From: Cyanodermella asteris
Lineage: Eukaryota > Ascomycota > Lecanoromycetes > Ostropales > Stictidaceae
Reading direction: 5' to 3'
Assembly (NCBI GenBank): GCA_900618795.1
Contig: UYJD01000003.1
Location: 344,262-408,261 of the forward strand
Length of the DNA: 64,000 bases
Position numbers and translations under genes: made by a program. Positions 5,700 through 50,744 of this stretch are shown here, in pieces (position 1 is the first letter of the stretch; each line of letters opens with the position of its first letter). Under the pieces are notes generated by a model. That model was not told where the DNA came from and made no database searches. It saw nothing but the letters and a program-made list of their open reading frames with translations.

Positions 5700-6111
5700 T
5701 GATCCAGACGCCCCACCGGAAGAATTTCTGGTTCTTTGCGATGGACAGATAGAACAAGCATATCGAAGTCTTGGTTGACATTAACACCGGATTGTAGAGG
5801 ACTGAGAATGAATATTCGGACTGTCGGAGAGGTAGTTCGTTGGATTCGGGGTTGTGTTCAGCATGCACGCCGAGGCCATGGCGAACAGCCCAGCAGATGC
5901 TGAAGGAGAAGCCAAACGCGAGGGCCCATGCGAGGACTATAAACCAATCGTCGAGTTTCTAGCGGCCAACGACGAACAGGCGCGATATGCATCGAAGGAA
6001 TGTGAATGTGAAGGAGAGGACGGTGAAGATGATGGTGACAACGAGCACCGTCGGTCCGCGGTTCTCATCTGCTCTACCATCTAGCGAGGTCGAGTTCCCT
6101 CTCGGGTCCAT
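5697..6111 (-). pseudogene. 5' part of the rhodopsin-like (SAT4/Pth11-type) domain, interrupted twice
   Basis: From an ATG at 6111 one reads MDPRGNSTS, a first hydrophobic helix (VLVVTIIFTVLSFTFTFLR), CISRLFVVGR, then a TAG at 5961-5959 where the family normally has Trp (GRW-LDD), then KLDDWFIVLAWALAFGFSFS and on to ICLFYLSIAKNQKFFRWGVWIT. At about 5703-5697 the frame shifts by one before LAVVNLAGIALTLVNAFQC, which continues the same domain. No GT-AG intron of workable length (at least 40 nt) removes either lesion. So the gene is either newly decayed or carries sequence errors. The TAG corresponds to CpA>TpA on the opposite strand, the change favoured by repeat-induced point mutation, but one site proves nothing. 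Confidence 0.65.
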
Positions 6112-16293: not shown

Positions 16294-16381
16294 AATGTCA
16301 CCGCCTCTGTCACCGCCCGATCAAGGATGCTAGAAAGGTTGTGGTGGCACGAAGAAGGAGAGAGAAACCGCCACGCGAATC
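16294..16381. promoter_or_regulatory. 88-bp shared head-to-head promoter of tad2 and the ATR gene
   Basis: The two start codons (16293 on -, 16382 on +) are only 88 bp apart, so 5' UTRs and core promoters of both genes must lie here or overlap the opposite coding region. No TATA box is evident. Inferred from spacing alone. Confidence 0.6.
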
Positions 16382-19300
16382 ATGGAAAATACCATGAACG
16401 GCACCGCCAACGGCCACGCCCAATTTGCAATCAACGGTATCGGTGCCGGACCGCCGCATTCAACGCTTGCAGCACAGATTGTTGAAAATATTCAACACTC
16501 ACGACCGCGCCGGGAACGGACCGATGATTTACAGAACCTGCTTGATGAGTTTCTGAGGGCTGGCCCTGAGGCGTTTGCGGGCACGGACCTGCCGACGCGG
16601 TATCAGCTTATTGGCGTCCTCCTCAAAGCATGTGTAAAGAACCTGAGCAGCGTCGGCCCGTTTGACGACATCGATGCTATCAATAGGCAGTCTGTACAGG
16701 TGCTCGAGGCTGTGCAACATACCATTACCCAGTCGGCGGATGTTTTGCTATTTGTGCCTGACGCCATCTCGTCGGTCGACCATCTCTCAGCTCCTTTCTT
16801 CTTATCGTTACTGCCACGTCTCTTTCACTTCGTTGGTGACAACTATGATGAGCGAATCGCACATGCTAGCCTCGACGCCGTTAAAGCTTGTTTGCGAGCA
16901 GAGAGCAAAGGCAGCTTCTTGAAGGCCGTCGCGAAACCCATCACTCGGTATGTGCACCACACCATCCAAGATGTCGTCCGTTTGCTGGGACATGGACAGT
17001 TGCCTTCAGTGTCCGTGCCTTCAGACCAGAGCCTGGCAGCGGTTTGGAGTTTATCAGACGTCCGATGTGTTCCCAGGTTACAGGTCCCCGAGCCTAGATT
17101 GTCATGGCTCTGTGCCGTCGCCATAAGGCTGCTTGATCTCCAGGTGCCGGAACTTCGTCCAAAGAGGAAGTCTCCTGTGCATTTTGACTTGGAGCCTCTG
17201 AAACATGCGGCGCGCCTTGTTCAGTCCTTGCGTCGTCGACAGACGCTTTTGCAGAACAATGCAAGATCGGGTCCGTTGTATAAAGGGCTTCTTTCTACGT
17301 TACGACGTTGCCTCATTATGCCAACGCAGAGGACTCCACAGCGCCAGATTTTGTCAATCATGGTCCCTGCCATGGCTGATCTTTTGGAGCAGATCCTGAG
17401 TAACAAGCTTCTGCTCGAAATCGTGCAAGATGAGGCATGCTTCGCGCTTTCTTGCTTATTCACGACATATGCGGCGAAAATTGAGCAGAGATCTGTTTTC
17501 TCCGACAACTTTACCGCTTATCTACAAAGCTTGCTCGATTCTCCCGGTGATTGGACATCCACGTCTCTCGATTTGAGGCTTTCATTTGCACTAGTCTCCT
17601 TGACGATCCTCGAACGCGATTTAGATGGATCCGCCGAGGCATATATCAGCCAGATCAAGAGCATACCACTGGCTCTTGAGCTTTCTGCTGCTTCTCAGAG
17701 CCTTGATGTCAATAATCCCAGCACCCAATCCGTGGACAGTCGGCCGAGGAAGCGGCTGCGACTAGCTATCCTCCCCGAAAACCGCTTGGAGTCTCATCCA
17801 AGATCCGCTCTCGAGGCAATCTTAACTGAGAGGGGACTCGCTTCTATCGGCGATAATGCGATCGGTGATTCATGGAAACGACTGCCAGGAGACGGTGATC
17901 CTGTTCAAAGTCTGCTGCTCGTGGAAATGGGGAGAGCCATTTGCCAAAGCAATAGCGGTTCCAATGATCGCACGTGTCTCAAGTGTGATGTGGTGGTTGA
18001 GTCAGTTTCACTGGACGGCGAAGCACACGATCAAGCTTTCTGTGACTACTGTTTCGCTGTTCTCACCAGTATGGCAACTGTACATCCTGACCAACCTCCT
18101 TCAGAGCTGCTCATCAAAAGTCCGCTCTCGCGCACTATTGCCTTGTCTATTTTGGACCGGCTCCTCTCACACTCAAAGAATCCCAGTCATTTCAGCTTAG
18201 AGGGATCGGCACTCGGGAAATGGTGCCAACAGTGCCTTTTGAGCAAGTTCAAAGAGGTCAGAGTGCTAGCCGGCAAGACCCTACGACGCTACATGAGCTT
18301 CAACAGCGATTCGGAAGTATCACGCCGCAATCGTGTCATCTCTTTGGATACGCTGCGCAAAGTGTCCGAGAGGAGCACTGTCCAGGAGCATGAGACCTGC
18401 ATTTGGGCCCTGGGGCAACTCGCAAACCTCAATCCCGGCCACGATGAGATGAACATCATCTTGTTCAAACTTGTTGACTATTTGAGTCACCCAAATCCTC
18501 TTGTCAGCGGACTTGCGTATGACGAACTTCTGAGACTGGCAAATCACGAACCTGCAACAGCGAAGAGGCTGCTGGAACCCTTCTGGAACACCATCGCTGT
18601 CAAAGTTGTTGGGGATCTTGTCACAAGACCTTCGGCAATTCAAAGGCTATGTGACATCCTTGGCGTCTCTGTGGCATTTTTCCTTTCATATACTCGACTT
18701 CATACAGTTCCATACATGGTGTTGACGAAGAAACGGGACGTCCTTGAACGCATAGCCGCAGCCACTGTACGCCCGGATGACAGTCCATCGACAGTTCTGC
18801 AAGTCTGCTTGACGACTGACCAGCTACCATTATTGCTTGCAAGGATCTTAATGGAGCCCTCCCCTGATCTGGCAAGCTTGATGCAAAACTTGCTGTCCCA
18901 TGCCTCCGCAGAATTTGATGGGATGGATGTTTTCGATCTGCTCAAGATCGATCAGGCTCCGATTGCTTTCGAGATATTCCAAAGGGCTGGCGAACTTGGG
19001 GATGATCATACGGAACAAGTGCGAAAGGCTATCGCATTCCTGGCTGAGAATGGTCAGCGCCGTCAGGGGTCCTCATCTCGAAGACCGACTCGTAAAAGCA
19101 CCGACAATACCACGCAATTGATCCATTCTTTCTTTGAGGCGCACGATCTCGCCATCATCAAGTCTCTGTCCGATATTGTTACTGAAGTCGAACGCCCGCA
19201 AATATTACCTGACCGACGCCGGTGTCTGGTCGGGATCAGGCAGATGATTGCCGTCGCAGGAGATAGCCTCTCCCGCGCTTCAATTCAACTGTCTGCTTGT

Positions 19301-22300
19301 TTGCGCTCAACTGTCGCGAATCCTGACCTATGCGACGACGGATTTGCTGCATGGACCCTTATGATGAAATCTTTCGAGGACACTGGAAGTTTAGTAGATC
19401 CGACCTTTGCACTGATCGAGCGTAACTGGAAGATCTTCAGCTTGTCGACACAACAAAAAGCTCAGGACTTGATTGCATGGGTCTTTTCAGAACAGCGAGA
19501 ATACTTGAACGACTTCATACATGAGCTGCCGTCCCTTGGAGATATCCCGCTGCTATCGAAATACGAAACAGAGATCGTGAAGTTCAAAGCGCAGCTTGAT
19601 CAGAAACGCACAGTCCTGTCATTTATCAATAGACTACAACCTGAGGATCCTGATGTAACCAGAAGGACGCTTGAAGAATTGGAAGCCTGGTTGGAATCAA
19701 ATGCGAGCTTTATCCAGCAAGCGGCACAACTAGAACGCCCAGAACATATTGTCGGCAACGTGCTGCAGACACTCTTGGACACTTGTGTCCGCCATGCTAG
19801 CGTGGACAAAGAGATAGCTCTTCTCTGCGCGCGATGTCTCGGTCTGATTGGATGTCTTGATCCGTCACGCATCGAACTGTCCCGGGACAGTCGAGAGATT
19901 GTTGTCCTGTCGAATTTCTCTGATCGAAATGAGACTGTTGACTTTGTTGCCTTCTTCCTGCAAGAAGTTATTGTCCCTTCATTCCTATCGAACATGAGCA
20001 CACGCTCCCAAAACTTCCTAGGATTTGCTATGCAAGAGCTTTTGCAGGTCTGCGAGTTTAAATTCTCAAGTTCTCGAGGAATTGAGGACACAGATTCGTA
20101 CCGAAAATGGATGAAGATGACCGAGGAGAGCAGAGCCGTTCTCATGCCGTTCATGAATTCAAGATACACGTTACGGGAGGGAAACCCTGGATCTGACAAG
20201 AAGTACCCCATCTTCAGCCCCGAGAAAGGCCATGATGAGTGGCTTCGTGAACTTTGCTTTGACCTCCTCCGCAAAGCGCAAGGAACCAATGCCGCTATGG
20301 TGTTTTCGATCTGCAAACGAATTGTGAGAGGCCAGGACATCGCCATCGCATCATTTTTGCTACCTTTTATTGTGCTCAACATCCTTGTAGGGGATGAGCT
20401 GGAGCATCGAGCTGACATCGGCACCGAGTTCATGCATGTACTCGGCTGCCCTCTCCAGGATAAGCCTCGTGATGTGCAAGACAACATCATCCTGTGCAGT
20501 CAGAACATGTTTCGAACTCTTGATTACCTCTCAAAATGGATGCAAAAGAAGCGAACCTTCTTAGCAAAGTACAGAATTGCGCAAGCAGAGCGCCAAAATA
20601 GTGAGCACTCGATTCAGGTGGTGCAGAGCCTCCTTGATGGCACTCCAGCTGAAATAATGGCCAGCAGGGCCGTGGAATGCAGGAACTATTCACGAGCTTT
20701 GTTCTATTGGGAGCAGTACATGCGCCAATGGCTGGATCAAAATGTAGAGCGCCTCAAGCAAGAGCCTCAAGCATCGGACTTCTTGTATGAGAAGCTGCAA
20801 GAGATCTATGTCGCTATTGACGAGCCTGATGGCATTGAAGGCGCATCTGCGAATGTGCATATGTTTGACATTACCCAGCAGGTGATGGAACATCGCAAAG
20901 CAGGAAAATGGACGGCCGTGCAAAGCTGGAACGAACTTCAAGTCGCTGAAGAACCAGGCAACGAGCAAGCTCAAAGCGCCTTGCTCAGTAGCATCCGCGA
21001 AACCGGCCAGTACGAAGTGCTTCTCAACGAATTTTCAGCCATGACCATGTCTGAGTCGGCTGCAGCAGCCTGTAGGCCGTTGATGATCGAAGCTTGTTGG
21101 GAGACCTCAAACTGGGAGAGACTTAAGACATTCGTCTCCAAAGACAAAGCGAAACAGGGAGCCGATTTCACTTCCGGAGTCGGATCAGCTCTCCAGGCTC
21201 TGTATGAAGAGAACAAAACCGCATTTGAGAACTCGCTTCAGACCATGCGGGTCGAGCTGGCCCGCGGTCTTTCGAAATCTTCAGTAGCAAATTTGCAAAC
21301 ATGTCGACAAACTCTGCTTCAGCTTCATGCTCTGCATGAAATCGAAGTTATTGCTGACGTCCATGGCATCGCCGAGCAACTGTCGCCGGAGTTGAAATCG
21401 AGTCTGAACCTAAGATTGAATACTATCGGTGCTTTCTCCTCGGACAAGCAATATGTTCTTGGCCTTCGCCGAGCTGCTATGGAGCTCTCTCCCCCTGGCT
21501 GCTATGCCTTGGACCTTTCAGCATCGTTGCTCGAGTCTGCACGACTTTTCAGGAAACAAGGTCAGATGCCGCAGGCCTTCAAGGCCATTCTGCGCGCGGA
21601 GCTGCTTGACGACGAATCGGCGACAATTGAACACGCTCGCTTGCTTTGGAAGGACGGAAATCATCGAAAGGCCATTCAGAGTCTCGAAGGTGCAATACAA
21701 ACCCATGCATTTGCGTTGCGCGCTACCTCTGCCGTCATTGAGGACTCCGTGGCTCAGACTGCCGCGGATAGTCAGAAGCAACAGAACATACTCGAGGCGA
21801 AGGCAAAATTGTTGCATGCGAGATGGGTTGACAAAGCAGGGCAAACGCAATCCGACGCGATCATCAAGGAATACCAAAATGCCTGCCAGCTTCACTCACG
21901 CTGGGAAAAGGGCCAGTATTACCTTGGCAGACACTATGACAAACTTCTCGAATCGGAGAGGATGAAGCCGCCAGGAAAGATAGCCCAGACCGTTTTGACA
22001 GGCGAGCTTGCGAAACACGTCATCGAGAACTATATCAGAGGCATGGCTTGGGGTGTGAGATATGTCTATCAGACTTTACCACGTTGTCTGACCTTGTGGT
22101 GCGAAATGGGCTCTATGGCCGATCAACCCCCTGAGTCGAAGTATGGCACAGACGAGGTGTTCCGGGCCCACATCATCAAAAATCGTCGGAAGATCTTCGA
22201 CTTAACCCAATCCCAGCTGAAGAAGTACATTGATCGTCTGCCGGCATGGATATTTTATACGGCTTTGAGTCAAGTATGCGCGCGTATTTGTCATGCCAAT

Positions 22301-23752
22301 GTCAAGGTCTACCAAACGCTGTCGGAAATCGTCACCAAAGTGTGTGTCACACATCCGCAGCAATCATTGTGGGCGCTTCTTGCAATGATTCGGTCAACAC
22401 AAAGAGATCGCATGCAACGTGGTCAGCAATGTCTTGCCAAAGTTCAAGACTCGGCAAAGCGGAAAAGCGCGGCTGTTGCGACTGAAGTCAGCGATTACAT
22501 CCGTCAGGGCGCTAGCACAACTGAGCAGCTGCTTACATTGTGCAACGCAGATCTTAAGAAGTTTCCCCGAGGACAAAAGACCTTGAGCATGAAGGAGCTG
22601 GGCTTTTCCCACAAGCAAGCAAGTCCTTGTAGGCTTGTCGTACCTGTACAGTCTGGTCTTGCTCTCTCGCTCCCCCCTGCAATTGACGGGGTGAGCACGA
22701 GGCAACACAAAGCCTTCAGCAAGGAAGTCGTCACAATTAAAGCGTTCCTTGACGATGTACTGCTTATGAGTTCACTACAGCGGCCACGAAAAGTCGATAT
22801 CCTGGGCAGTGATGGCAGGAGATACAGCTTGCTCTGCAAACCCAAAGACGACCTGCGACTCGATCAGAGGCTGCTTGAGTTTAACGCTATGATCGAGCGT
22901 CTGCTCAAGAAGGATGCCGAGAGCAGCAAGCGGCGTTTGTATGTCAAGACCTATGCTGTGACACCGCTCAACGAAGAGTGCGGCCTGATCGAGTGGGTTG
23001 ACGGGCTGAAGACCCATCGTGACATCCTCCTACAACTGTATAAAGACCACGGCATTCATCCGCAATACCAGGAAATTGGGCAGCTGCTCGAAGAAGCTAT
23101 TGGAGGCAATATCTCCAAATTTGACAACGACGTTATGGGAATGTTTCCTAATGTCTTCCATGAATGGTTCACCGACACGTTCCCAGAGCCCGAAGCATGG
23201 TACAATGCCCGGCTGCGGTACACAAGATCAGCAGCCGTCATGTCAATGGTGGGCCACGCCCTCGGACTGGGAGACCGTCACAGCGAGAACATCATGGTCG
23301 AAGAAGGGAACGGCGGTGTCATGCATGTGGACTTCAATTGTCTCTTTGATAAGGGCTTGACCTTCGAAAAGCCTGAGAAAGTGCCGTTCAGATTGACATC
23401 GAACATGGTAAGCGCCTTCGGCGCTCACGGCTACGAGGGACCTTTCCGCAAAGCATGTGAGCTAACCATGGGTCTGTTGCGGCATAACGAAGACACGTTC
23501 ATGACCATCCTGGAGCAGTTTTTGCACGATCCAACAATTGACCTCATGGGAATGAGGAAGAAGAGGACGAATGTGGACGTGGCAAATACGCCAGAAGGTG
23601 TCCTAGAGCAAGTGCGAAACAAGCTGAGAGGAATGCTGCCAAAGGAGTCGGTGCCATTGTCTATTGAAGGATATGTGGAGCATCTGATCTTACAAGCAAG
23701 AGATTCGTTCAATCTGGCGAGTATGTACATAGGCTGGTGTGCCTTCTTGTGA
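16382..23752 (+). CDS. mec1: ATR/Mec1-type checkpoint kinase (phosphatidylinositol 3-kinase-related)
   Basis: 2456 residues in a single uninterrupted exon. Apical nuclear kinase of the DNA-damage and replication checkpoint, recruited by its partner (Ddc2/ATRIP) to RPA-coated single-stranded DNA; called UvsB in Aspergillus and Mus-9 in Neurospora. The N-terminal two thirds are helical-repeat sequence, and the region around residues 1350-1900 fits the FAT domain. The kinase domain has LLCKPKDDLRLDQR near residue 2145, the catalytic loop GLGDRHSENIM near 2294, HVDFNCLFDKG (metal site) near 2312 and an activation segment with PFRLTSNMVSAFG. The last ~32 residues are the FATC tail, ending FNLASMYIGWCAFL. 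Length and FATC match ATR rather than ATM or TOR. The start is the first in-frame ATG. Confidence 0.96.
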   Translation: MENTMNGTANGHAQFAINGIGAGPPHSTLAAQIVENIQHSRPRRERTDDLQNLLDEFLRAGPEAFAGTDLPTRYQLIGVLLKACVKNLSSVGPFDDIDAINRQSVQVLEAVQHTITQSADVLLFVPDAISSVDHLSAPFFLSLLPRLFHFVGDNYDERIAHASLDAVKACLRAESKGSFLKAVAKPITRYVHHTIQDVVRLLGHGQLPSVSVPSDQSLAAVWSLSDVRCVPRLQVPEPRLSWLCAVAIRLLDLQVPELRPKRKSPVHFDLEPLKHAARLVQSLRRRQTLLQNNARSGPLYKGLLSTLRRCLIMPTQRTPQRQILSIMVPAMADLLEQILSNKLLLEIVQDEACFALSCLFTTYAAKIEQRSVFSDNFTAYLQSLLDSPGDWTSTSLDLRLSFALVSLTILERDLDGSAEAYISQIKSIPLALELSAASQSLDVNNPSTQSVDSRPRKRLRLAILPENRLESHPRSALEAILTERGLASIGDNAIGDSWKRLPGDGDPVQSLLLVEMGRAICQSNSGSNDRTCLKCDVVVESVSLDGEAHDQAFCDYCFAVLTSMATVHPDQPPSELLIKSPLSRTIALSILDRLLSHSKNPSHFSLEGSALGKWCQQCLLSKFKEVRVLAGKTLRRYMSFNSDSEVSRRNRVISLDTLRKVSERSTVQEHETCIWALGQLANLNPGHDEMNIILFKLVDYLSHPNPLVSGLAYDELLRLANHEPATAKRLLEPFWNTIAVKVVGDLVTRPSAIQRLCDILGVSVAFFLSYTRLHTVPYMVLTKKRDVLERIAAATVRPDDSPSTVLQVCLTTDQLPLLLARILMEPSPDLASLMQNLLSHASAEFDGMDVFDLLKIDQAPIAFEIFQRAGELGDDHTEQVRKAIAFLAENGQRRQGSSSRRPTRKSTDNTTQLIHSFFEAHDLAIIKSLSDIVTEVERPQILPDRRRCLVGIRQMIAVAGDSLSRASIQLSACLRSTVANPDLCDDGFAAWTLMMKSFEDTGSLVDPTFALIERNWKIFSLSTQQKAQDLIAWVFSEQREYLNDFIHELPSLGDIPLLSKYETEIVKFKAQLDQKRTVLSFINRLQPEDPDVTRRTLEELEAWLESNASFIQQAAQLERPEHIVGNVLQTLLDTCVRHASVDKEIALLCARCLGLIGCLDPSRIELSRDSREIVVLSNFSDRNETVDFVAFFLQEVIVPSFLSNMSTRSQNFLGFAMQELLQVCEFKFSSSRGIEDTDSYRKWMKMTEESRAVLMPFMNSRYTLREGNPGSDKKYPIFSPEKGHDEWLRELCFDLLRKAQGTNAAMVFSICKRIVRGQDIAIASFLLPFIVLNILVGDELEHRADIGTEFMHVLGCPLQDKPRDVQDNIILCSQNMFRTLDYLSKWMQKKRTFLAKYRIAQAERQNSEHSIQVVQSLLDGTPAEIMASRAVECRNYSRALFYWEQYMRQWLDQNVERLKQEPQASDFLYEKLQEIYVAIDEPDGIEGASANVHMFDITQQVMEHRKAGKWTAVQSWNELQVAEEPGNEQAQSALLSSIRETGQYEVLLNEFSAMTMSESAAAACRPLMIEACWETSNWERLKTFVSKDKAKQGADFTSGVGSALQALYEENKTAFENSLQTMRVELARGLSKSSVANLQTCRQTLLQLHALHEIEVIADVHGIAEQLSPELKSSLNLRLNTIGAFSSDKQYVLGLRRAAMELSPPGCYALDLSASLLESARLFRKQGQMPQAFKAILRAELLDDESATIEHARLLWKDGNHRKAIQSLEGAIQTHAFALRATSAVIEDSVAQTAADSQKQQNILEAKAKLLHARWVDKAGQTQSDAIIKEYQNACQLHSRWEKGQYYLGRHYDKLLESERMKPPGKIAQTVLTGELAKHVIENYIRGMAWGVRYVYQTLPRCLTLWCEMGSMADQPPESKYGTDEVFRAHIIKNRRKIFDLTQSQLKKYIDRLPAWIFYTALSQVCARICHANVKVYQTLSEIVTKVCVTHPQQSLWALLAMIRSTQRDRMQRGQQCLAKVQDSAKRKSAAVATEVSDYIRQGASTTEQLLTLCNADLKKFPRGQKTLSMKELGFSHKQASPCRLVVPVQSGLALSLPPAIDGVSTRQHKAFSKEVVTIKAFLDDVLLMSSLQRPRKVDILGSDGRRYSLLCKPKDDLRLDQRLLEFNAMIERLLKKDAESSKRRLYVKTYAVTPLNEECGLIEWVDGLKTHRDILLQLYKDHGIHPQYQEIGQLLEEAIGGNISKFDNDVMGMFPNVFHEWFTDTFPEPEAWYNARLRYTRSAAVMSMVGHALGLGDRHSENIMVEEGNGGVMHVDFNCLFDKGLTFEKPEKVPFRLTSNMVSAFGAHGYEGPFRKACELTMGLLRHNEDTFMTILEQFLHDPTIDLMGMRKKRTNVDVANTPEGVLEQVRNKLRGMLPKESVPLSIEGYVEHLILQARDSFNLASMYIGWCAFL

Positions 23753-30166: not shown

Positions 30167-33100
30167 TCATTTCGATGCTCCAACGTTCCCCAGTGCGGTT
30201 CCGTTCCTGGCAATATCCTTGGCGATGGCTTTCTGAAGAGCATCCTCGCCCGCAAAGACCTGAAATTCATCGTTCTCATGGTCACGCTGCTCGCTCGCCG
30301 CACCAAACCAGAAGCGAACATAGAAGTTCAAATGCTCGTCGCTGCCCGCCGACTTGAAGATAGAGATCTTGTCACCAGAGCGCAACAAGCCCAGGGGGAC
30401 ATTTATCTCGTTTTGTGGCTTTCGAGTCAGAGGCACACCGTTAATATAAATTGGTCTGGAGCCACGAGTGCTGATGACAGCATAGAAGTGAGTCTTGGTC
30501 CAATCTGTGTTGGGGTCCTTGAGTCCGCGACGACCTGTCTTGGGATCCCAAAGATGTATCATGAACGCCGATTTCGATACGCGCACGTCGTTTGGATATG
30601 GATAGACGTGAGTGCAGCTCGGAGCACGGCCCCATTCAGTGAGCGGCAAGGTAATATGGAGCTCATCAATCGGGATGGAATGATGACCAGGAGTCAAGAC
30701 TCCTAGCGCAGACACAACAGATTGGTCGAGATTGGCCTGGAATGACGGTGTCGATGGTCGACTTGAATTGGTTGATGGACGTCGAGCTGGTGGGGGCATC
30801 GCAGCAGAGTCATTTGAGACAGCAGACGTATCTGCCAGGTTTCCCGGGTCACTTTGTGTCCCACCACCTTGAGTGATAAACGATTGAGCGGCCGCAGTCT
30901 TCGGAAGGGCTTGACGCTGTGGCGCATCCGAAGGGAAAGCCATATTCGCTGTAGCAAGCTTTGGGCGGGGGCGAGGTGTTATTTGGTCGGAAGAGTCGAC
31001 ATCCATACCAGCCTCAGGCGTCACAGGTCGTTGAGTGGTAGCAGATCCTGGCATCTCACGTTTTGCTGCCGCAAATCTTCCACGCTTGGAGCTGGCTTCG
31101 AGTGACTCGTCATCATCAGTCAGATGGTGTTTAACGGATGTTGCAGCGGAGGCAACATTGTTGAAGCTCGGCGCAAAAGATACCTCGCTTTCTGGTGACT
31201 TCAGCCCGTTTGCATCGACTTCGCCCTGAGCATCGCTCAAGCTTACGGCAGATTGAGCACCACGATTGCCAGCAAAACTTGCTGCATGCGAGAAGTTGCC
31301 GGCAGTTACGGCTATGGAGCGAACAGGTTGAGCTGGACTGGGTGCTCCGATAATATGTGGCGTATTCGCGGCTGAACCAAAGACACCTGACTCTGCGATT
31401 TCTCCAAAGAGCTTTCCAGGCTGTTGAGGGACGGCGGGAGTTAGTGCTGCCTCTTTGCTAGCAGTCTTTCTCTTACGCGGGCTGGAATCGGGTGGCTGCC
31501 TAGGAGTTTCTCCTCTCGCACGCAAATTGTAACGCGATGAATGTTGACTTTGCAAGTGCGACTCGGCGGGCAATTTCTTATCGGCCAGACGTATGCCGAG
31601 ACCATGTCCAGCACGCGGGAGCTCGTTGGCCTCTATCATTCCCTCATCTTCCTCGTCACTGTCATCGCGGTCGTGAATGCTGAGCTGAGAAGGATCAATA
31701 CCGGCATCTGTGTCCATATGCTCTTCAATGATCGAATCTAAGCCGGTCATCTCATCGTCACTGCTCTCCTCTTCGAATGCCAAGGACGTCGCTTCTGTCT
31801 TGAACTCATAGTCGATATCGACGACATCTGGGATGCGTTGCATGAATGGCAAGGTGAGGAGCTTCCTGGCACTCCATCGCTCGACAGGTGAAAGTGCTAG
31901 CGAATTCAAGAAGAAGGTCTCCCAATCGGGGTGAGCATCCGACTCTTCGAATTTCGTCTGGGGAAAACGCTCCTCCATAATCGAGTTCAGCATGTGAACC
32001 CCGTGATTTGCTGCTGAGGCTGAATACGGCGCCTCACCAACGACAAGGTGGAACATGACAGCTGCAAACGACCAGATATCGACGGCAACGCTGTATGGAT
32101 CGGATCGTGATCTCTTGGGATCCGGCTTCTCTCCTCGCCGTGCTTGCGCCCAGCCAGGATAAATTTCAGGGGCACAGTACAGTAGGGTGCCGCAGAAGGT
32201 CTGGTAGACAGTGTTGTCTCCTTGGCTGATGACTTTTGACAGGCCGAAATCCGTCAGTTTCACCCAAATTGGACTGAGGGCTTTCTTGAGAATGTTGTCC
32301 GGCTTGACATCACGGTGTGCGATCGCATTGTCGTGGAGGTAGGCCAGTGCATGGCACATCTGTTTCGCAACTGCACGAAGATCGACATCGCTCAGTCGTG
32401 CCGACACACCAAGGTGCTGCGTGAGGTCGCCGTAGGGCACGCATTCCATGACGATGATCAGATCGCGCGGCGTGTCGTGATGTTCGAACGAGCGAACAAT
32501 GTGCTGATGATTTATCCGCTTCAGGATGTTGAGCTCGTTGTGCATCTTCACATCCAGAACTCCATTTCTCATGAATCGTCGCTTGTCGAGTTCTTTTCCG
32601 GCAAATTCAGCGCCAGAGCGGACGTCGACCAGTTTGTAAACGGTTGCAAATGCGCCTGCCCCTATTTTAGCCACAATCTTGTACTTGCCTCCTCCATTCC
32701 ATCTCGCTCCATGATTGAACGGCATCGTGCCGGCGGTGAGAAAATCCATGTCGGCTTGATTGTTAGGAGCTTCCATTTTGATTTGTACTCCTGGCTTGGT
32801 CTTTCCTCCCGCGTGAGCCAGCTGTCCTAGATTTCGCAGGTTGGCAGTCTTTTGAGCGCGTACTCTCTTGATCTCATTGACGTATGCTCTGAGCACGTTG
32901 TTCCAGGCCATCTCGTCACGACGCTCCGGAATCTTGGTGTAAAATCGTGCAGTCCTCCGATTATCGTCCACATAAATCTCGATTATGGAACCGTTGGACA
33001 GCATTCTGCGGACAGAGTTGCCTACTACAGGCTTTTTGAATTTGAGAAGTATGTTGTCGACCATGGTACCATTCGTCGATGTGTCCTCGATCATGATCAC

Positions 33101-33643
33101 ACCACTTTCATTGAGAAAGATTCGGAAGTGCATGCCGCTCACTCTGACCGAGGCTTCATTCGGCAATTCGAGCACAATGTCAGACTTGCGCTTGTCTCTT
33201 CCGAAGACGAAGCCCAAGTCCTTGTCCCTAATCTGAGATGACAGTCGAAGCGCAAACTCTCCGGGAACGTCTCGCACTGAGTTGCCATTGATCTCTGGAG
33301 TTGCCTGCTGAGTGGGAGCCAATGATTCATGTCTATCGTATGTTTCGATGACTACACGCTGCTGATGCGTAATGCCTGAATGGCGGAAAACATGCTGGGG
33401 GGTATCCTCATTCGCCCTGTGGACCATCTCGAAGGCGGCTGGATTTGTTGGACAAAGAGTACAAATGATGTCAAGCTCTTCGCTCTCAGAGAGACCTGAC
33501 ATGCTGAGTTGCTGGGTGCCCAAACCGGCTTCCTGCGTGGCTACTGGCTGCTGTGTCGCGGTCTCCTCGTCGTCTGTTCCTTTGGGAGGGCCCATCCTGA
33601 CCCTGTCGAGTTCGTCGTCAAGCGCGTTAGTGTTACCGGCCAT
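30167..33643 (-). CDS. Rad53/Chk2-like checkpoint kinase with two FHA domains
   Basis: 1158 residues, one exon, starting at ATG 33643 (MAGNTNALDDE). The order is FHA, kinase, FHA, as in yeast Rad53. The N-terminal tail has Thr-Gln sites at about residues 30, 36, 43 and 111, the cluster type phosphorylated by ATR/ATM. FHA1 (~132-222) shows FVFGRD, SGMHFRIF and DTSTNGTMVD. The kinase (~321-603) shows IGAGAFATVYK, AGKELDK, HRDVKPDN, DFGLSKV and CAPEIYP, with a basic insert in the activation segment (RRGEKPDPKRSRSD). A long Ser/Pro-rich acidic linker with basic patches (SPRKRKT) follows. The C-terminal FHA (WGRAPSCTHVYP, SKSAFMIHLWD, IYINGVPL) covers about the last 150 residues before a short tail. 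Probably nuclear. Another possible identity is a Dun1-like paralogue. Confidence 0.92.
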   Translation of the reverse strand: MAGNTNALDDELDRVRMGPPKGTDDEETATQQPVATQEAGLGTQQLSMSGLSESEELDIICTLCPTNPAAFEMVHRANEDTPQHVFRHSGITHQQRVVIETYDRHESLAPTQQATPEINGNSVRDVPGEFALRLSSQIRDKDLGFVFGRDKRKSDIVLELPNEASVRVSGMHFRIFLNESGVIMIEDTSTNGTMVDNILLKFKKPVVGNSVRRMLSNGSIIEIYVDDNRRTARFYTKIPERRDEMAWNNVLRAYVNEIKRVRAQKTANLRNLGQLAHAGGKTKPGVQIKMEAPNNQADMDFLTAGTMPFNHGARWNGGGKYKIVAKIGAGAFATVYKLVDVRSGAEFAGKELDKRRFMRNGVLDVKMHNELNILKRINHQHIVRSFEHHDTPRDLIIVMECVPYGDLTQHLGVSARLSDVDLRAVAKQMCHALAYLHDNAIAHRDVKPDNILKKALSPIWVKLTDFGLSKVISQGDNTVYQTFCGTLLYCAPEIYPGWAQARRGEKPDPKRSRSDPYSVAVDIWSFAAVMFHLVVGEAPYSASAANHGVHMLNSIMEERFPQTKFEESDAHPDWETFFLNSLALSPVERWSARKLLTLPFMQRIPDVVDIDYEFKTEATSLAFEEESSDDEMTGLDSIIEEHMDTDAGIDPSQLSIHDRDDSDEEDEGMIEANELPRAGHGLGIRLADKKLPAESHLQSQHSSRYNLRARGETPRQPPDSSPRKRKTASKEAALTPAVPQQPGKLFGEIAESGVFGSAANTPHIIGAPSPAQPVRSIAVTAGNFSHAASFAGNRGAQSAVSLSDAQGEVDANGLKSPESEVSFAPSFNNVASAATSVKHHLTDDDESLEASSKRGRFAAAKREMPGSATTQRPVTPEAGMDVDSSDQITPRPRPKLATANMAFPSDAPQRQALPKTAAAQSFITQGGGTQSDPGNLADTSAVSNDSAAMPPPARRPSTNSSRPSTPSFQANLDQSVVSALGVLTPGHHSIPIDELHITLPLTEWGRAPSCTHVYPYPNDVRVSKSAFMIHLWDPKTGRRGLKDPNTDWTKTHFYAVISTRGSRPIYINGVPLTRKPQNEINVPLGLLRSGDKISIFKSAGSDEHLNFYVRFWFGAASEQRDHENDEFQVFAGEDALQKAIAKDIARNGTALGNVGASK

Positions 33644-35826
33644 GGCTGACAATTGTGGTCCCAGTGGAAGCAATGATGATTGCTGGTGTTGTTGGAAGAA
33701 GCAGAAGAAGAACGAGCGGTCGAGTCCAGAGGAAGAATTTCATGCACGAAATTTATGTTGAGTATTGAGTGTTTGTTTACTTATCTTGAGTGGACTTCAG
33801 ATTGCTCTTCATTCGCTCCAGGCTTCAGAATAGGGGAATCAGTACGTCATCAACGCAACCCGTTACTGCCTGGTGAAGAAAGCACGGTCTTTTGAGCCCT
33901 GCCTAAGCTTGCGTGACTGACTCACTGCACGCCAAACAGCTGACCAAGGTCGCTGAGTCTGAAAATAAAATACAAGTGAAGAGGTCTTCTCGTGTTCGTA
34001 AGCATTCGCGTGATTTTGCGGCGGCTTTGGTTCGGCTCGTTCGCTTCACGCTAGCGTGAAGGCGACTGTTGCTGTGCACAAACGCTTTTCGAACTATGAC
34101 GTTCTCGTGAAGCTGGACCTTGGCTGAACGGCCGGGCGAAATTGTTACCGGTTTGTTGTGTCTGCTATCGCGATGCTCTCTGAAGTTATCTGGTAGAGTA
34201 CGCGTCAGTCTGAAATATGCTTCAATTTTAACATGCTGAGTCAGGTCAACAATCGATGTCCCAGCTACGGATATGCCATCCCGTCACTGCACATCTCACA
34301 AATGCGCCCACATTGGAATCGCAGTTCTCTTGACCGCAAGTCACCCCTGGATCGAATTCCCAAGCGACGGCAGTTCTTTCTGTTGACTTGGAACGTTTGC
34401 GAAGAGCTCGAGTCTTGGTCATTGACTTTCATTTTAGACTCTGCGCAAATAGAAAAACACAGTTTGCAGGAAGTCATGGAGACGGTGGCCTACCTTGTTA
34501 TGAGGAGATGAATAAATTCGTGTTTCTGGATCAGCGCTGCGCTCGATGCCAAGCCTCTCGTCAGCAACCAACAAATATACAAGATATTTCATGCCTGTTT
34601 CGCCATTTCTTGTTAGCAGCCGGATCCAGCTCAGTCAGTAGTAGATGTTGATTCTCTGAACGCTGCTTGTTGTTCGTGAGCTTGAAAGTACTGTAGGGTG
34701 TAGAACGCAGGGACAGGATATCGCAAAGTCTTGAGCGGACGAGGCTCAATTGGCACCGCTCATCGCTAAGTACAACGTAAAGAGTTGCCACTTGCTTCAG
34801 AGTAGAAGGTGAAAGCTTTTCGGAGATAGAACCATGTACCAAGTGCTTAATGACAACAATTGAACGAACCTTGGACTGCGAACGTCTTGCAGCTGAGAGA
34901 AGCACGGCCAGAGAGCGCAAGCACCTTTGTCGTCGGGTGTTGTTTCGACAGTGTCCGCAGGCCAGCAGAGCCCTGCGAAAGAATCGAGGCGCGTCTGCCT
35001 ATTAGTGTCGCAATCGTTAGGGCAGTCTGGCTGCTCGCGATGTTGGCCTGGAAACACCTCGAGTGTTGCGCCGATGGTGGGCGAGCCTATTGAGTGGACG
35101 ACAGAGCCGAAGTACCGCGCGCGAAAAGAAACGCCGAATCGACTTGACGAATATGATCCCAGCTTACAGTGGCCTCAAACACCAGCGCGCAATGTCGAGA
35201 AACACGTCAGCAAATGCAAGAGCGACCGGTTCTTGGGAAGAGCAGGATCAAGCCCGGAGAAACATGTACAAGGACACCGCGGCGAAATAGAGTGAAGGTG
35301 AACGAGCAGGCGACGATAAGACTTCAAAGCTATGACCATGGCTGCGGGTGCCTGCGCGTTGAGATCTTCAAGGTTGCGCTCCATTGTTATGGGAGGCTCT
35401 CCGGTGAGCACGCGCCTATGAAAACTTGAGATACTTCCGAAACGCGCTGAAAGCTTCTCTACGCGACCACCTCACTGCTGAAAGGGCGTATATTGGACGA
35501 TGAACAATGGACACTGCCAAGAACGACCAAGCAGACATGTTATATTGAAGCTCGAGCGTCAGGGTTCCTGCTTTGCCTCACTGCCGCCTGGCCACCAAAC
35601 CGGCATAGGAAAGGCAGCCTTCAATGATGGGGGACCCTGTACTTCTGTGCTCATCATACCCAAGACGCCCACAACCCAGCAAATGCTCCTATACCTTCCA
35701 CCTTCTAAACATGTACATAATCGCTGTCCGGCTTCCTCGCCCTCTGGCTAATTTTAGTGCTCCATTCCTGTCGCTGAACGCTCATGAACTCCGACTCCGA
35801 CCGCACAGCGAATCTCTGCCACGTCC
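33644..35826. other. Intergenic, no gene seen
   Basis: 2.2 kb between two minus-strand genes. It includes the promoter of the FHA kinase gene. Open frames are short and look random. Confidence 0.55.
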
Positions 35827-47100: not shown

Positions 47101-47138
47101 AGTAAAAGGAAATCTGACTGATCATCGAAACTCTCATA
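44105..47138. other. 3-kb intergenic region between divergent genes, no gene seen
   Basis: Separates the LIM gene (-) from INO1 (+). The longest open frame (45114-45719, +, 201 codons) has no recognisable domain and no coding-like composition. A short TTA/TAC repeat lies near 45311-45328. The last ~250 nt hold the INO1 promoter; I looked for the yeast inositol element core CATGTGAAAT and did not find it. Confidence 0.6.
46983..47029 (+). other. Possible 5'-UTR intron of INO1
   Basis: GTGAGT at 46983 and TTTTCAG ending at 47029 give a 47-nt stretch of typical local intron length, 109 nt before the ATG. It could equally be chance; no coding constraint tests it. Confidence 0.35.
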
Positions 47139-48734
47139 ATGGCTCCCCACGCGAATGGCGATGCCAACGGCTCCAACCATACAAATGGTACTTCTGCCAA
47201 GCCGCTGTTCACCGTTGACTCTCCCAACGTTCAATATACCGACGAGAGCATTGTCAGCCGGTACAACTACAGAACGACCAGCGTGAGCAAAGCTGCCAAC
47301 GGTTCGTATGTCGCTATTCCAAAGGAGACCGCGTACGACTTCAAGGTCGACCGCAAGGTTGGCAAGGTAGGAATGATGCTTGTGGGTCTTGGTGGCAACA
47401 ACGGAGCGACCGTGACCGCCGGTATCTTGGCCAATCGTCATGGCCTATCCTGGGAGACGCGAGAAGGTACACGAGCTGCCAACTACTATGGCTCCCTCGT
47501 AATGGCATCCACCATGAAGCTGGGAACGGACATGAAGACCGGAAAGGAAGTCAACATCCCCTTCCACGATGTCTTACCAATGGTTCACCCGAATGATCTT
47601 GTCATTGGCGGATGGGACATCAGCAAGATGGACATGGCCAGCGCCATGGACCGTGCCGCCGTACTTGAGCCGACTCTCAAGGGTCTGGTCCGCAAGGAGA
47701 TGGCTGCCATGGTACCATTACCGTCCGTCTACTATCCAGACTTCATCGCCGCAAACCAGGAAGATAGGGCCGACAACGTGCTGGATGGCTCCAAAGCCTC
47801 CCTGGCTCATGTGGAGAAGATCAGAGAGGATATTCGCAATTTCAAAAGCGCAAATGGGCTGAGCAAGGTCATTGTACAGTGGACCGCCAACACGGAGCGC
47901 TACGCAGACATCCTGGAGGGCATCAACGACACAGCCGACAACCTGATGCGAGCCATCGAGAACGGGCACGAAGAGGTGTCTCCCTCTACCATCTTCGCAG
48001 TCGCGTCAATCCTCGAGAATGCTCCGTTCATCAATGGCTCGCCTCAAAACACCTTTGTACCGGGATGTATCCAGCTGGCTGAGAAACACAATGCCTTCAT
48101 TGGCGGGGACGACTTCAAATCTGGACAGACGAAGATGAAGTCCGCTCTTGTTGATTTCATGATCAATGCTGGCTTGAAGCTCACTTCGATTGCAAGCTAC
48201 AACCACTTGGGCAACAATGACGGCAAGAACCTCAGCTCGCAGAAGCAGTTCAGGTCTAAGGAGATCTCCAAGTCCAACGTCGTAGACGACATGGTCGAGG
48301 CCAACAATGTTTTATACAAGCCAGGAGAGCATCCCGATCACACTGTCGTGATCAAGTATATGCCAGCTGTCGGAGATAACAAGCGTGCTCTAGACGAGTA
48401 CTACGCCGAGATCTTCATGGGTGGCCATCAGACTATCAGCCTGTTCAACGTCTGCGAGGACTCGCTTCTTGCATCGCCTCTGATCATTGATCTGGTCGTC
48501 ATTGCCGAGCTCATGACCCGTGTACAGTGGAGACTGGCTGGAAGCGATGATTGGAAGTCTTTCCACAGCGTCTTGAGCGTGCTTAGCTTCATGCTGAAGG
48601 CTCCGTTGACGCCACCCGGCACGCCCGTCATCAATGCCCTTGCCAAACAACGCAGCGCGCTCACCAACATTTTCCGTGCCTGTGTCGGACTTGAGCCAGA
48701 GTCTGACATGACGTTGGAACACAAGCTATTCTGA
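47139..48734 (+). CDS. ino1: Inositol-3-phosphate synthase
   Basis: 531 residues, no intron, full family length. Converts glucose-6-phosphate to myo-inositol-3-phosphate with enzyme-bound NAD, the committed step of inositol synthesis; cytosolic. The NAD-binding glycine-rich loop GLGGNNGATVTAGI lies at ~83-96. Other signatures are LVIGGWDISKMDMASAMDRA, a VQWTANTERY segment, NTFVPGC, FIGGDDFKSGQTKMKS, the catalytic region SYNHLGNNDGKNLS near 354, YKPGEHPDHTVVIKYMPAVG and LTPPGTPVINALAKQR near the C-terminus. The N-terminus has an Asn/Gly-rich extension typical of filamentous fungi. Confidence 0.97.
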   Translation: MAPHANGDANGSNHTNGTSAKPLFTVDSPNVQYTDESIVSRYNYRTTSVSKAANGSYVAIPKETAYDFKVDRKVGKVGMMLVGLGGNNGATVTAGILANRHGLSWETREGTRAANYYGSLVMASTMKLGTDMKTGKEVNIPFHDVLPMVHPNDLVIGGWDISKMDMASAMDRAAVLEPTLKGLVRKEMAAMVPLPSVYYPDFIAANQEDRADNVLDGSKASLAHVEKIREDIRNFKSANGLSKVIVQWTANTERYADILEGINDTADNLMRAIENGHEEVSPSTIFAVASILENAPFINGSPQNTFVPGCIQLAEKHNAFIGGDDFKSGQTKMKSALVDFMINAGLKLTSIASYNHLGNNDGKNLSSQKQFRSKEISKSNVVDDMVEANNVLYKPGEHPDHTVVIKYMPAVGDNKRALDEYYAEIFMGGHQTISLFNVCEDSLLASPLIIDLVVIAELMTRVQWRLAGSDDWKSFHSVLSVLSFMLKAPLTPPGTPVINALAKQRSALTNIFRACVGLEPESDMTLEHKLF

Positions 48735-49124
48735 TTGTGCTAGGGATAGATGACGCATGCATCGTCAGGGCTTTCGCAACAGCCCGGGGGTCTTGGGCAG
48801 TTTCAACAACGCATGTCCGTCCATTCTTTTGATCTTTGGGTCGTATGAGATACCATTTATTCTTTGACTTTTGCGAACGTATGCTGATGATCTATGTGTT
48901 CGTGCTTGAGATCAAAAATTGACATACGCGCTTTCCGCATGAAAACCCCCCAAGCACGCCGTAAACTGGAATTTAGTCATGTTCGCGCCTTCCTCGTCGT
49001 AGCCCCCTCGCCACCACATGTGCTAGATCTGCTCGCGCCATCTGTCGTGGCGAAGCCTTTGGCAACTGTACTCTGATGAATCGGACCAACACTCCATCAT
49101 TAACTTAACATGTAAATAAATACG
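48735..49124 (+). other. Intergenic spacer
   Basis: 3' UTR of INO1 and the promoter of the next gene on the same strand. No gene recognised. Confidence 0.6.
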
Positions 49125-50744
49125 ATGCACCAGCCTTCCATTCAGCAGTTCTACCCGCGTCAGACACAGCATGCCTTTGCTGGTAGTGTCGAAGGTATGC
49201 CCGCCGCTCCATCTCACAACCCTCGAGAGGATAATGAGGCCGCTGCTGGCAAGCCATCTCTTGGTGGCGCTGGACGAGACGAGCTTGACGTGTGTGATCT
49301 GGAGCCTGGTCAGTGTGCATCCCAGAAACCGAATATAATTCTTTGGCTTCAGCTAATCATGTCATCTGCATAGGACCTGTGTTTGCCATCTTGACATGTC
49401 GAATTATCGCTCTTCAAAACCGAAGGTCCATCAGCACGTCACCTGAGTCTCTCGGATCCGCTGGTCACTGGCGAATCTGTGCCAAGGACAATACAGGAGC
49501 TTTGACGATTCTCCTCTACTATTACACGAGGCAATATCAGCTTGTTCTCGGGAGTCTCGTCCGTATCAGCATCTCACATGTCTCTCATGGCAACTCTAAG
49601 ATTCACGTATACAGCTGTACTTCGTCGTTCACATCCATATTTCCGGAACGAGACAGGTCTTGCTCTTTCGAGGTCATCGAAGACCGGCAATCGTGCCGCC
49701 AGCCACTGCTAACCTCTCATGGTCGTTTCAAGCGAATCACGGCCACACTCGCAGAACTCCTGCGAGAAGATTCTGGCATGACAAACGTATCAGTGCTCGT
49801 TTGCGTCAAAAGTATCGGGCCCAAAATCGAGCGAATGGTGAAGGATCGGAGCGGCGAAGAGCGTAAGGCTGCAGTGACAGAGGTCCGCATTTTTGACCGC
49901 ACCGGAAGCTCGGTCATATCCTTCTGGAATGACCTTGCCGCATCGCCGTCTTGCTGGAGGGCCAGTGATACAATCCTTCAAATCTACTCACCGGGACTGG
50001 ATCCGTCGAAAACTGCTCTGCGTATCACTGGGAGTACCTATATCGACGTCGATCCCGCCGAGATGGAAGCGGCTGAGTTGAAGGCTTGGGCAAACAGAAG
50101 GACCAGGCCAGGAAAGAAAGATTGTTCTGAGCCACTGAGCTCCACTTTCGACGTCGAAGCAGCCTTGTCCGCGCAAAGGAAGATTCTCTTCACCGTCGCG
50201 TCGATAAATGAGTGGTAGGGCGTCTTTCAGCGATCCTTGCTTTGCCAGCTAACATACGCAGGGCTAGGGCAACGCCGGCTGGGACAACAGTGATGGGCTA
50301 CTTCAGTTTGATTATATTAGAGCTCAACATTTGCGAACTTCGCGTTGATCGAAGACTTTGCGTTTCGGAATGGTAGGTCTGGAAGCGTAGATTCAATCAT
50401 GAGGTGAAAGCTTTGATTAACAAGATCCCAGCTGTGGCATTCCGCTCTCTTCAAACTCCGTCACTGCGAAATGCAGACAATGCAATACAAAGATATCTCT
50501 TCGGCTGAATCCAGGTATGGTCGGCACGTTGATTGACGAAACTGGGTCCATAAGTCCCGGAAGCCTCCTCTGGACGGACAGGGCGTGGACGGAATTCCTT
50601 GGACGCGGGCCTGAAGACCTCACTCGCCAAGATGGGAAGTCTTTGCGAAGCTTGGAAGCTAGGATGTTGCACGTGCGACTAGCGTTCCTGCTCGGCTGGG
50701 AAACTAGTCGAAAAAAGCTGACAGTGCTTTCGGTCATGCCTTGA
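49125..50744 (+). CDS. RPA1/MEIOB-like OB-fold protein with an N-terminal PCNA-binding (PIP) motif
   Basis: 482 residues over four exons: 49125-49308, 49374-50214, 50262-50372 and 50432-50744. Every intron is GT-AG with a good branch site (GCTAAT, GCTAAC, GATTAAC), and the total (1449 nt) is a whole number of codons. Residues 3-10, QPSIQQFY, fit the canonical PIP box QxxIxxFF/FY. Two stretches look like OB folds (~62-130, with AILTCRIIALQ; ~180-290, with VSVLVCVKSIGPK, TEVRIFDRTGSSVISFWND). The C-terminal part resembles the RPA1 large-subunit C domain: a possible zinc ribbon (Cys 375, 379, 380, 393, 396; AKCRQCNTKISLRLNPG), then GTLIDETGSISPGSLLWTDR and LLGWE. By this architecture it should bind single-stranded DNA. 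The true RPA1 is larger, so this is a paralogue or MEIOB relative; exact identity uncertain. Confidence 0.72.

Follow-up and report, generated by a model that had tools for sequence, protein, structure and literature searches.

A MEIOB-like gene with a candidate PCNA-interacting motif at its N-terminus in an ascomycete

Introduction

MEIOB is an animal meiosis protein that coats single-stranded DNA, and the PIP box is a brief sequence by which proteins usually attach to PCNA, a DNA clamp. A gene in a 64-kb stretch of DNA from the ascomycete Cyanodermella asteris (the whole of this stretch is referred to here as the window) seems to bring the two together. Is its product a relative of MEIOB, or of the RPA large subunit (RPA1, RPA70), and might the octapeptide close to its start be a means of holding it on PCNA?

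Structure of the gene and its surroundings

The first-pass annotation had proposed a gene of four exons, with GT-AG introns and good branch sites, amounting to exactly 483 codons. This model proved sound: the coding sequence is 1449 nt long, or 483 codons including the stop, and gives a product of 482 residues. Its parts are as follows.

49125..49308, + strand: exon 1, residues 1-61 and one base more; PIP box motif in the N-terminal tail
49309..49373, + strand: intron 1, 65 nt, GTCAGT...ATAG
49374..50214, + strand: exon 2, putative OB1, OB2 and the start of OB3
50215..50261, + strand: intron 2, 47 nt, GTAGGG...GCAG
50262..50372, + strand: exon 3, part of OB3; C375 at 50359-50361
50373..50431, + strand: intron 3, 59 nt, GTAGGT...CCAG, splitting the codon of C379
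50432..50744, + strand: exon 4, C380 (50433-50435), C393 (50472-50474), C396 (50481-50483), the rest of OB3 and the stop

When GT/AG pairs were enumerated in short ranges around these junctions and the open models kept, four splice models resulted; introns 1 and 3 are identical in all four, and the three others (481, 480 and 479 aa) differ from the 482-aa model at intron 2 alone. Branch-like sites are present as CTAAT, 21 nt before the end of intron 1, as CTAAC, 13 nt before the end of intron 2, and as TTAAC (15 nt) in intron 3, and the donor of intron 1, GTCAGT, is less than the best consensus. A codon-usage score trained on nine long ORFs of the window favours the frame given here in the first two exons (0.157 and 0.045 per codon, respectively), and runs against it in exon 3 (-0.064) and exon 4 (-0.034), where another frame scores higher. 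Codon usage is too weak for judging exons 3 and 4 and, because it fails to favour their frame, these two exons rest on the homology described below.

The upstream neighbour (47118-48731, + strand) encodes myo-inositol-1-phosphate synthase. Elsewhere in the window, an uninterrupted frame of 2472 codons (16334-23749, + strand) carries M-HEAT_ATR, FAT, PI3_PI4_kinase and FATC domains and so specifies a checkpoint kinase of the ATR/Mec1 type, and a frame of 1190 codons (30170-33739, - strand) combines an FHA domain with a protein kinase, a layout like that of Rad53/Chk2. The occurrence of these two kinase genes and the MEIOB-like gene within one 64-kb stretch is perhaps due to chance. A single stop-to-stop frame of 881 codons (3138-5780, - strand) contains both fungal rhodopsin and MFS transporter domains, and may be either a fusion or two abutting genes. 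The presence of fungal domains nearby is consistent with a fungal host. A search of the window for tRNA genes with bacterial settings found none, and there was no match at the Rfam gathering thresholds.

Relationship to MEIOB and RPA1

For human MEIOB (442 aa) we used a provisional sequence entered by hand, which was then checked in three ways: against Pfam, it matched OB_MEIOB_N (2.7e-60) and REPA_OB_2 (2.2e-8); it carries the zinc ribbon C-2X-C-10X-C-2X-C that a 2015 review (PMC4830875) states for human MEIOB; and it has serine at position 251, the residue mutated in work cited in the same review. In BLASTP, residues 200-424 of the product aligned with residues 168-394 of this sequence, collinearly and through the zinc ribbon, with 61 of 243 columns identical (25%; 31.6 bits, E 4e-5 for the single comparison). 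Smith-Waterman comparison of the two gave Z values of 10.1 (BLOSUM62) and 11.1 (BLOSUM45), with no shuffled sequence scoring as high, whether shuffled in full (0/500) or locally (0/300). Among the 528 ORFs of at least 60 aa in the window, the stop-to-stop ORF containing exon 2 (from 49298 on) ranked first against MEIOB, with a score of 70, the runner-up scoring 55. These three lines of evidence bear out the assignment to an RPA1/MEIOB-like family that had been made from the letters alone, and they place the product with MEIOB in preference to RPA1.

Might the gene instead be a diverged but true RPA1, that is, a second RPA70 gene whose product serves in the RPA trimer of vegetative cells? The same OB and ribbon logic applies to RPA1, and with BLOSUM45 the product gave Z 4.5 both with human RPA1 181-616 (equalled by two of 500 shuffles) and with Ustilago RPA70 (one of 500), OB2 on its own giving Z 3.3 with human RPA1. 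In that same BLOSUM45 test, however, MEIOB scored far higher, as given above, and BLOSUM62 put both RPAs at chance (Z 0.1 for the human and -0.1 for the Ustilago protein). Moreover, only about 60 residues precede the first OB region, too few to accommodate the N-terminal domain of RPA1, for which a Pfam model was likewise absent among the matches listed for the full product. We consider a second RPA70 very improbable.

Other searches speak against the relationship. When tblastn was run on the window with MEIOB and RPA1, it missed the locus: the best match to MEIOB anywhere in the window reached 21.9 bits, 500 shuffled versions of MEIOB had a top ten at 28.1-32.0 bits, and one of those 500 attained the 31.6 bits of the BLASTP alignment. 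Profile comparison with hhalign gave a probability of 9% (P 0.0037) for the product against MEIOB as single sequences and 29% (P 0.00058) against an alignment of MEIOB plus two RPA70s; against the RPA70s alone the probability was 29% or less, with P 0.39. We regard membership of the MEIOB family as very probable, whether or not the protein binds PCNA.

OB regions and zinc ribbon

The similarity to MEIOB is unevenly distributed over the product, which can be divided provisionally as follows.

about residues 61-171, exon 2 (+ strand): putative OB1, an OB fold not being recognisable by sequence
about residues 172-302, exon 2 (+ strand): OB2
49787..50089, + strand: residues 200-300 of OB2, aligned with MEIOB

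OB2 is clearly similar to MEIOB (Z 8.1 with BLOSUM62, 6.3 with BLOSUM45), the letters identical or close between the two including VKSIG, EVRIFD.TGSS, W and DP...EA..L. OB3 taken alone is weak (Z 1.9 and 3.6, with 29 and one of 500 shuffles, respectively, scoring as high), and OB1 is at chance (Z 0.6 and 0.2 against MEIOB, and -0.1 to 0.6 when RPA is included in the comparison). Homology with MEIOB is thus supported by the alignments for OB2 and, when taken together with OB2, for OB3. Two OB-like segments had been predicted; OB2 and the ribbon-bearing OB3 emerge from the MEIOB alignment, and OB1, with its chance scores, does not, though it may be a diverged OB fold. The predicted Cys-rich ribbon is present, in the form of C375, C379 or C380, C393 and C396, in the region aligned to the ribbon of MEIOB, with a spacing of C-x4-C-x12-C-x2-C or C-x3-C-x13-C-x2-C depending on which member of the adjacent pair is counted.

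Domain libraries added little to this picture. The C-terminal RPA1-like region of the first-pass annotation found no counterpart in Pfam: no OB, RPA, Rep_fac-A_C or MEIOB model was among the matches listed for the product (E up to 10, filters removing most matches above 0.1), and OB_MEIOB_N was not among them, nor among those listed when the putative OB1 segment was searched by itself. Across the full product and five pieces of it, the lone match listed was a zinc ribbon below the cut-off, found with the full product at E 0.049. A PDB sequence search with the product returned three matches at chance level (E 1.1 each), and with the provisional MEIOB sequence as query no PDB entry matched at E 0.01. 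Folding exon 2 alone from its single sequence gave a mean pLDDT of 34.5, which is unusable either way.

The N-terminal motif

What, then, of the tail that precedes the OB regions? It contains the following motif, exactly where it had first been seen.

49131..49154, + strand: PIP box motif QPSIQQFY, residues 3-10, followed by PR

This is the sole such motif in the 482-aa product, and by its letters it is canonical, matching Q-x-x-[ILMV]-x-x-[FY]-[FY] in accordance with the consensus Q-x-x-h-x-x-a-a given in PMC6116012. By composition alone (63% disorder-promoting and 15% bulky hydrophobic residues in positions 1-60), the tail that bears it is probably disordered. The six reading frames of the window contain three matches to Q..[ILMV]..[FY][FY], and the one that has a methionine at most 12 residues upstream is QPSIQQFY of the MEIOB-like gene; the pattern is absent from all nine ORFs used for codon training. 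The N-terminal PIP boxes of DNA ligase I and Msh6 may offer a likeness in position.

Short motifs of this kind do arise randomly, and it is nearly as likely as docking on PCNA that we are dealing with an ordinary fungal MEIOB-like protein in which QPSIQQFY is a chance match, or the site of some other partner, with no binding of PCNA. From local amino-acid frequencies, the chance of the pattern is 4.0e-5 per site, which leads one to expect 0.019 matches anywhere in 482 residues and 0.48 at one given site among 12,000 proteins. The provisional human MEIOB sequence, moreover, contains no match anywhere, even allowing H for the aromatics, nor does human RPA1 181-616, and among open-licence PMC papers containing both terms there was no title on binding of MEIOB to PCNA. 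Against an incidental origin stands the strictness of the motif and its location at the extreme N-terminus of a protein of DNA-repair type, where the expectation for the first ten residues falls to 1.2e-4. Since the motif was chosen after it had been seen, among many motifs and genes (a pool of which the 26 long ORFs picked out in the window were part), it is suggestive, short of proof. Conservation might be expected to speak to this point; queries from exon 2, exon 4 and an alignment found no relatives in a collection of viral contigs, and queries from exon 2 and that alignment found none in a collection of prokaryotic genome contigs, a result that, given the viral or prokaryotic origin of the DNA in them, is uninformative on fungi.

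The motif also hinges on the start codon, because translation from the next in-frame methionine after M1 (M25) would drop it. An in-frame stop at 49113-49115, four codons upstream of the start ATG, belongs to the following element.

49110..49115, + strand: ATGTAA, a start-stop element 15 nt before the ATG of the gene, its TAA being the in-frame stop

From its sequence, ATGTAA is a possible minimal uORF, which could damp translation if transcribed. It is one of ten ATGs in the 365 nt examined upstream of the gene (from 48760 to the start), there being nine more.

Fission yeast Cdc24, a protein of OB type for which Pfam has dedicated models, is a replication factor with reported interactions with RFC and PCNA, and it is conceivable that the present gene is its counterpart, with a PIP box serving Okazaki fragment or flap processing and not meiosis. 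An interaction of Cdc24 with PCNA is in print (in the title of Tanaka et al. 1999, as cited in PMC545490), and Cdc24 partners Dna2 (PMC6943134). The Pfam matches listed for the product and its pieces, however, consist of the weak zinc ribbon alone, with no CDC24 model; the alignment of the product to MEIOB extends through the ribbon, the likeness to Cdc24 being judged by Pfam and description; and, according to PMC6943134, no Cdc24 homologue had been identified in other species. It seems most improbable, then, that this is a Cdc24, slightly more so than that it is a second RPA70.

MEIOB-like proteins in fungi

How new is such a gene? Souquet et al. (2013) reported finding no MEIOB in fungi, whereas the later review (PMC4830875) describes MEIOB-like sequences in several fungi, its text naming the ascomycete Neurospora crassa and also Mortierella verticillata, and the legend of its MEIOB/RPA1 tree including N. 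crassa, Coniosporium apollinis and Pneumocystis murina. Coniosporium apollinis is a member of the class Dothideomycetes. Neither S. cerevisiae nor S. pombe yielded such a sequence in the review, which considers that the role of the fungal MEIOB-like proteins is still to be worked out. It reports the ribbon motif for metazoan MEIOBs and for M. verticillata, ascomycetes being unmentioned in this connection. The earlier remark that no well-described ascomycete counterpart was known therefore holds for function, and fails for existence, three ascomycetes having been included in the review. Likewise, to speak of a novel kind of single-strand DNA factor was too strong, because ascomycete members of the family were already in print there; at most, the protein would be a member of that known family with a link to PCNA added. 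Among the open-licence PMC papers listed in our searches we found none on the function of an ascomycete MEIOB-like protein, or on a PIP box in one, and it may be that the PIP box is the new element in a family already known from ascomycetes.

A possible role at recombination DNA synthesis

The reading that we prefer, tentatively and at slightly less than even chances, is that the product is a fungal relative of MEIOB serving in the repair of meiotic breaks and docked on PCNA by an N-terminal PIP box. In this scheme the product would be a MEIOB-like paralogue of the RPA large subunit, lacking the N-terminal protein-docking domain of RPA1; by analogy with animal MEIOB, its OB folds would bind single-stranded DNA during the repair of meiotic double-strand breaks. 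The motif suggests that the tail may dock on PCNA, which could bring the protein into action at sites of recombination DNA synthesis, such as D-loop extension and second-end capture. Rather unlikely, though worth stating, is the wider proposition that tethering of this sort to PCNA occurs in some MEIOB-like proteins of fungi, the N-terminal PIP box replacing the docking domain of RPA1.

If that wider proposition is true, a meiosis-type single-stranded DNA-binding protein would sit on the very clamp that drives recombination DNA synthesis. A functional PIP box would tie MEIOB to a process in which a role for it has only been suggested. The rapid meiotic genetics of Neurospora and Sordaria would make the role of MEIOB-like proteins directly testable in ascomycetes.

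Comparison with known systems

In size (482 vs 442 aa), in the collinearity of OB2 and the ribbon-bearing OB3 and in having no RPA1 N-terminal domain, the product resembles human MEIOB, and MEIOB is described as being without that docking domain (PMC4830875). It differs from the provisional human sequence in its tail of about 60 residues with a PIP box, and from MEIOB in that its first OB is not recognisable by sequence. The spacing of the ribbon (C-x4-C-x12-C-x2-C or C-x3-C-x13-C-x2-C, compared with C-2X-C-10X-C-2X-C in MEIOB) is nearer to that of RPA1 (C-x4-C-x13-C-x2-C in the human protein), and an OB and ribbon layout is common to the product and RPA1/RPA70; unlike RPA1, the product has no N-terminal domain, shows weak overall similarity and begins with a PIP box, such as is absent from human RPA1 181-616. 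With S. pombe Cdc24 it would share the character of a PCNA-interacting factor, Cdc24 being a replication factor reported as such (title cited in PMC545490) and likened here by description; it differs in that no CDC24 model was among the Pfam matches listed for it.
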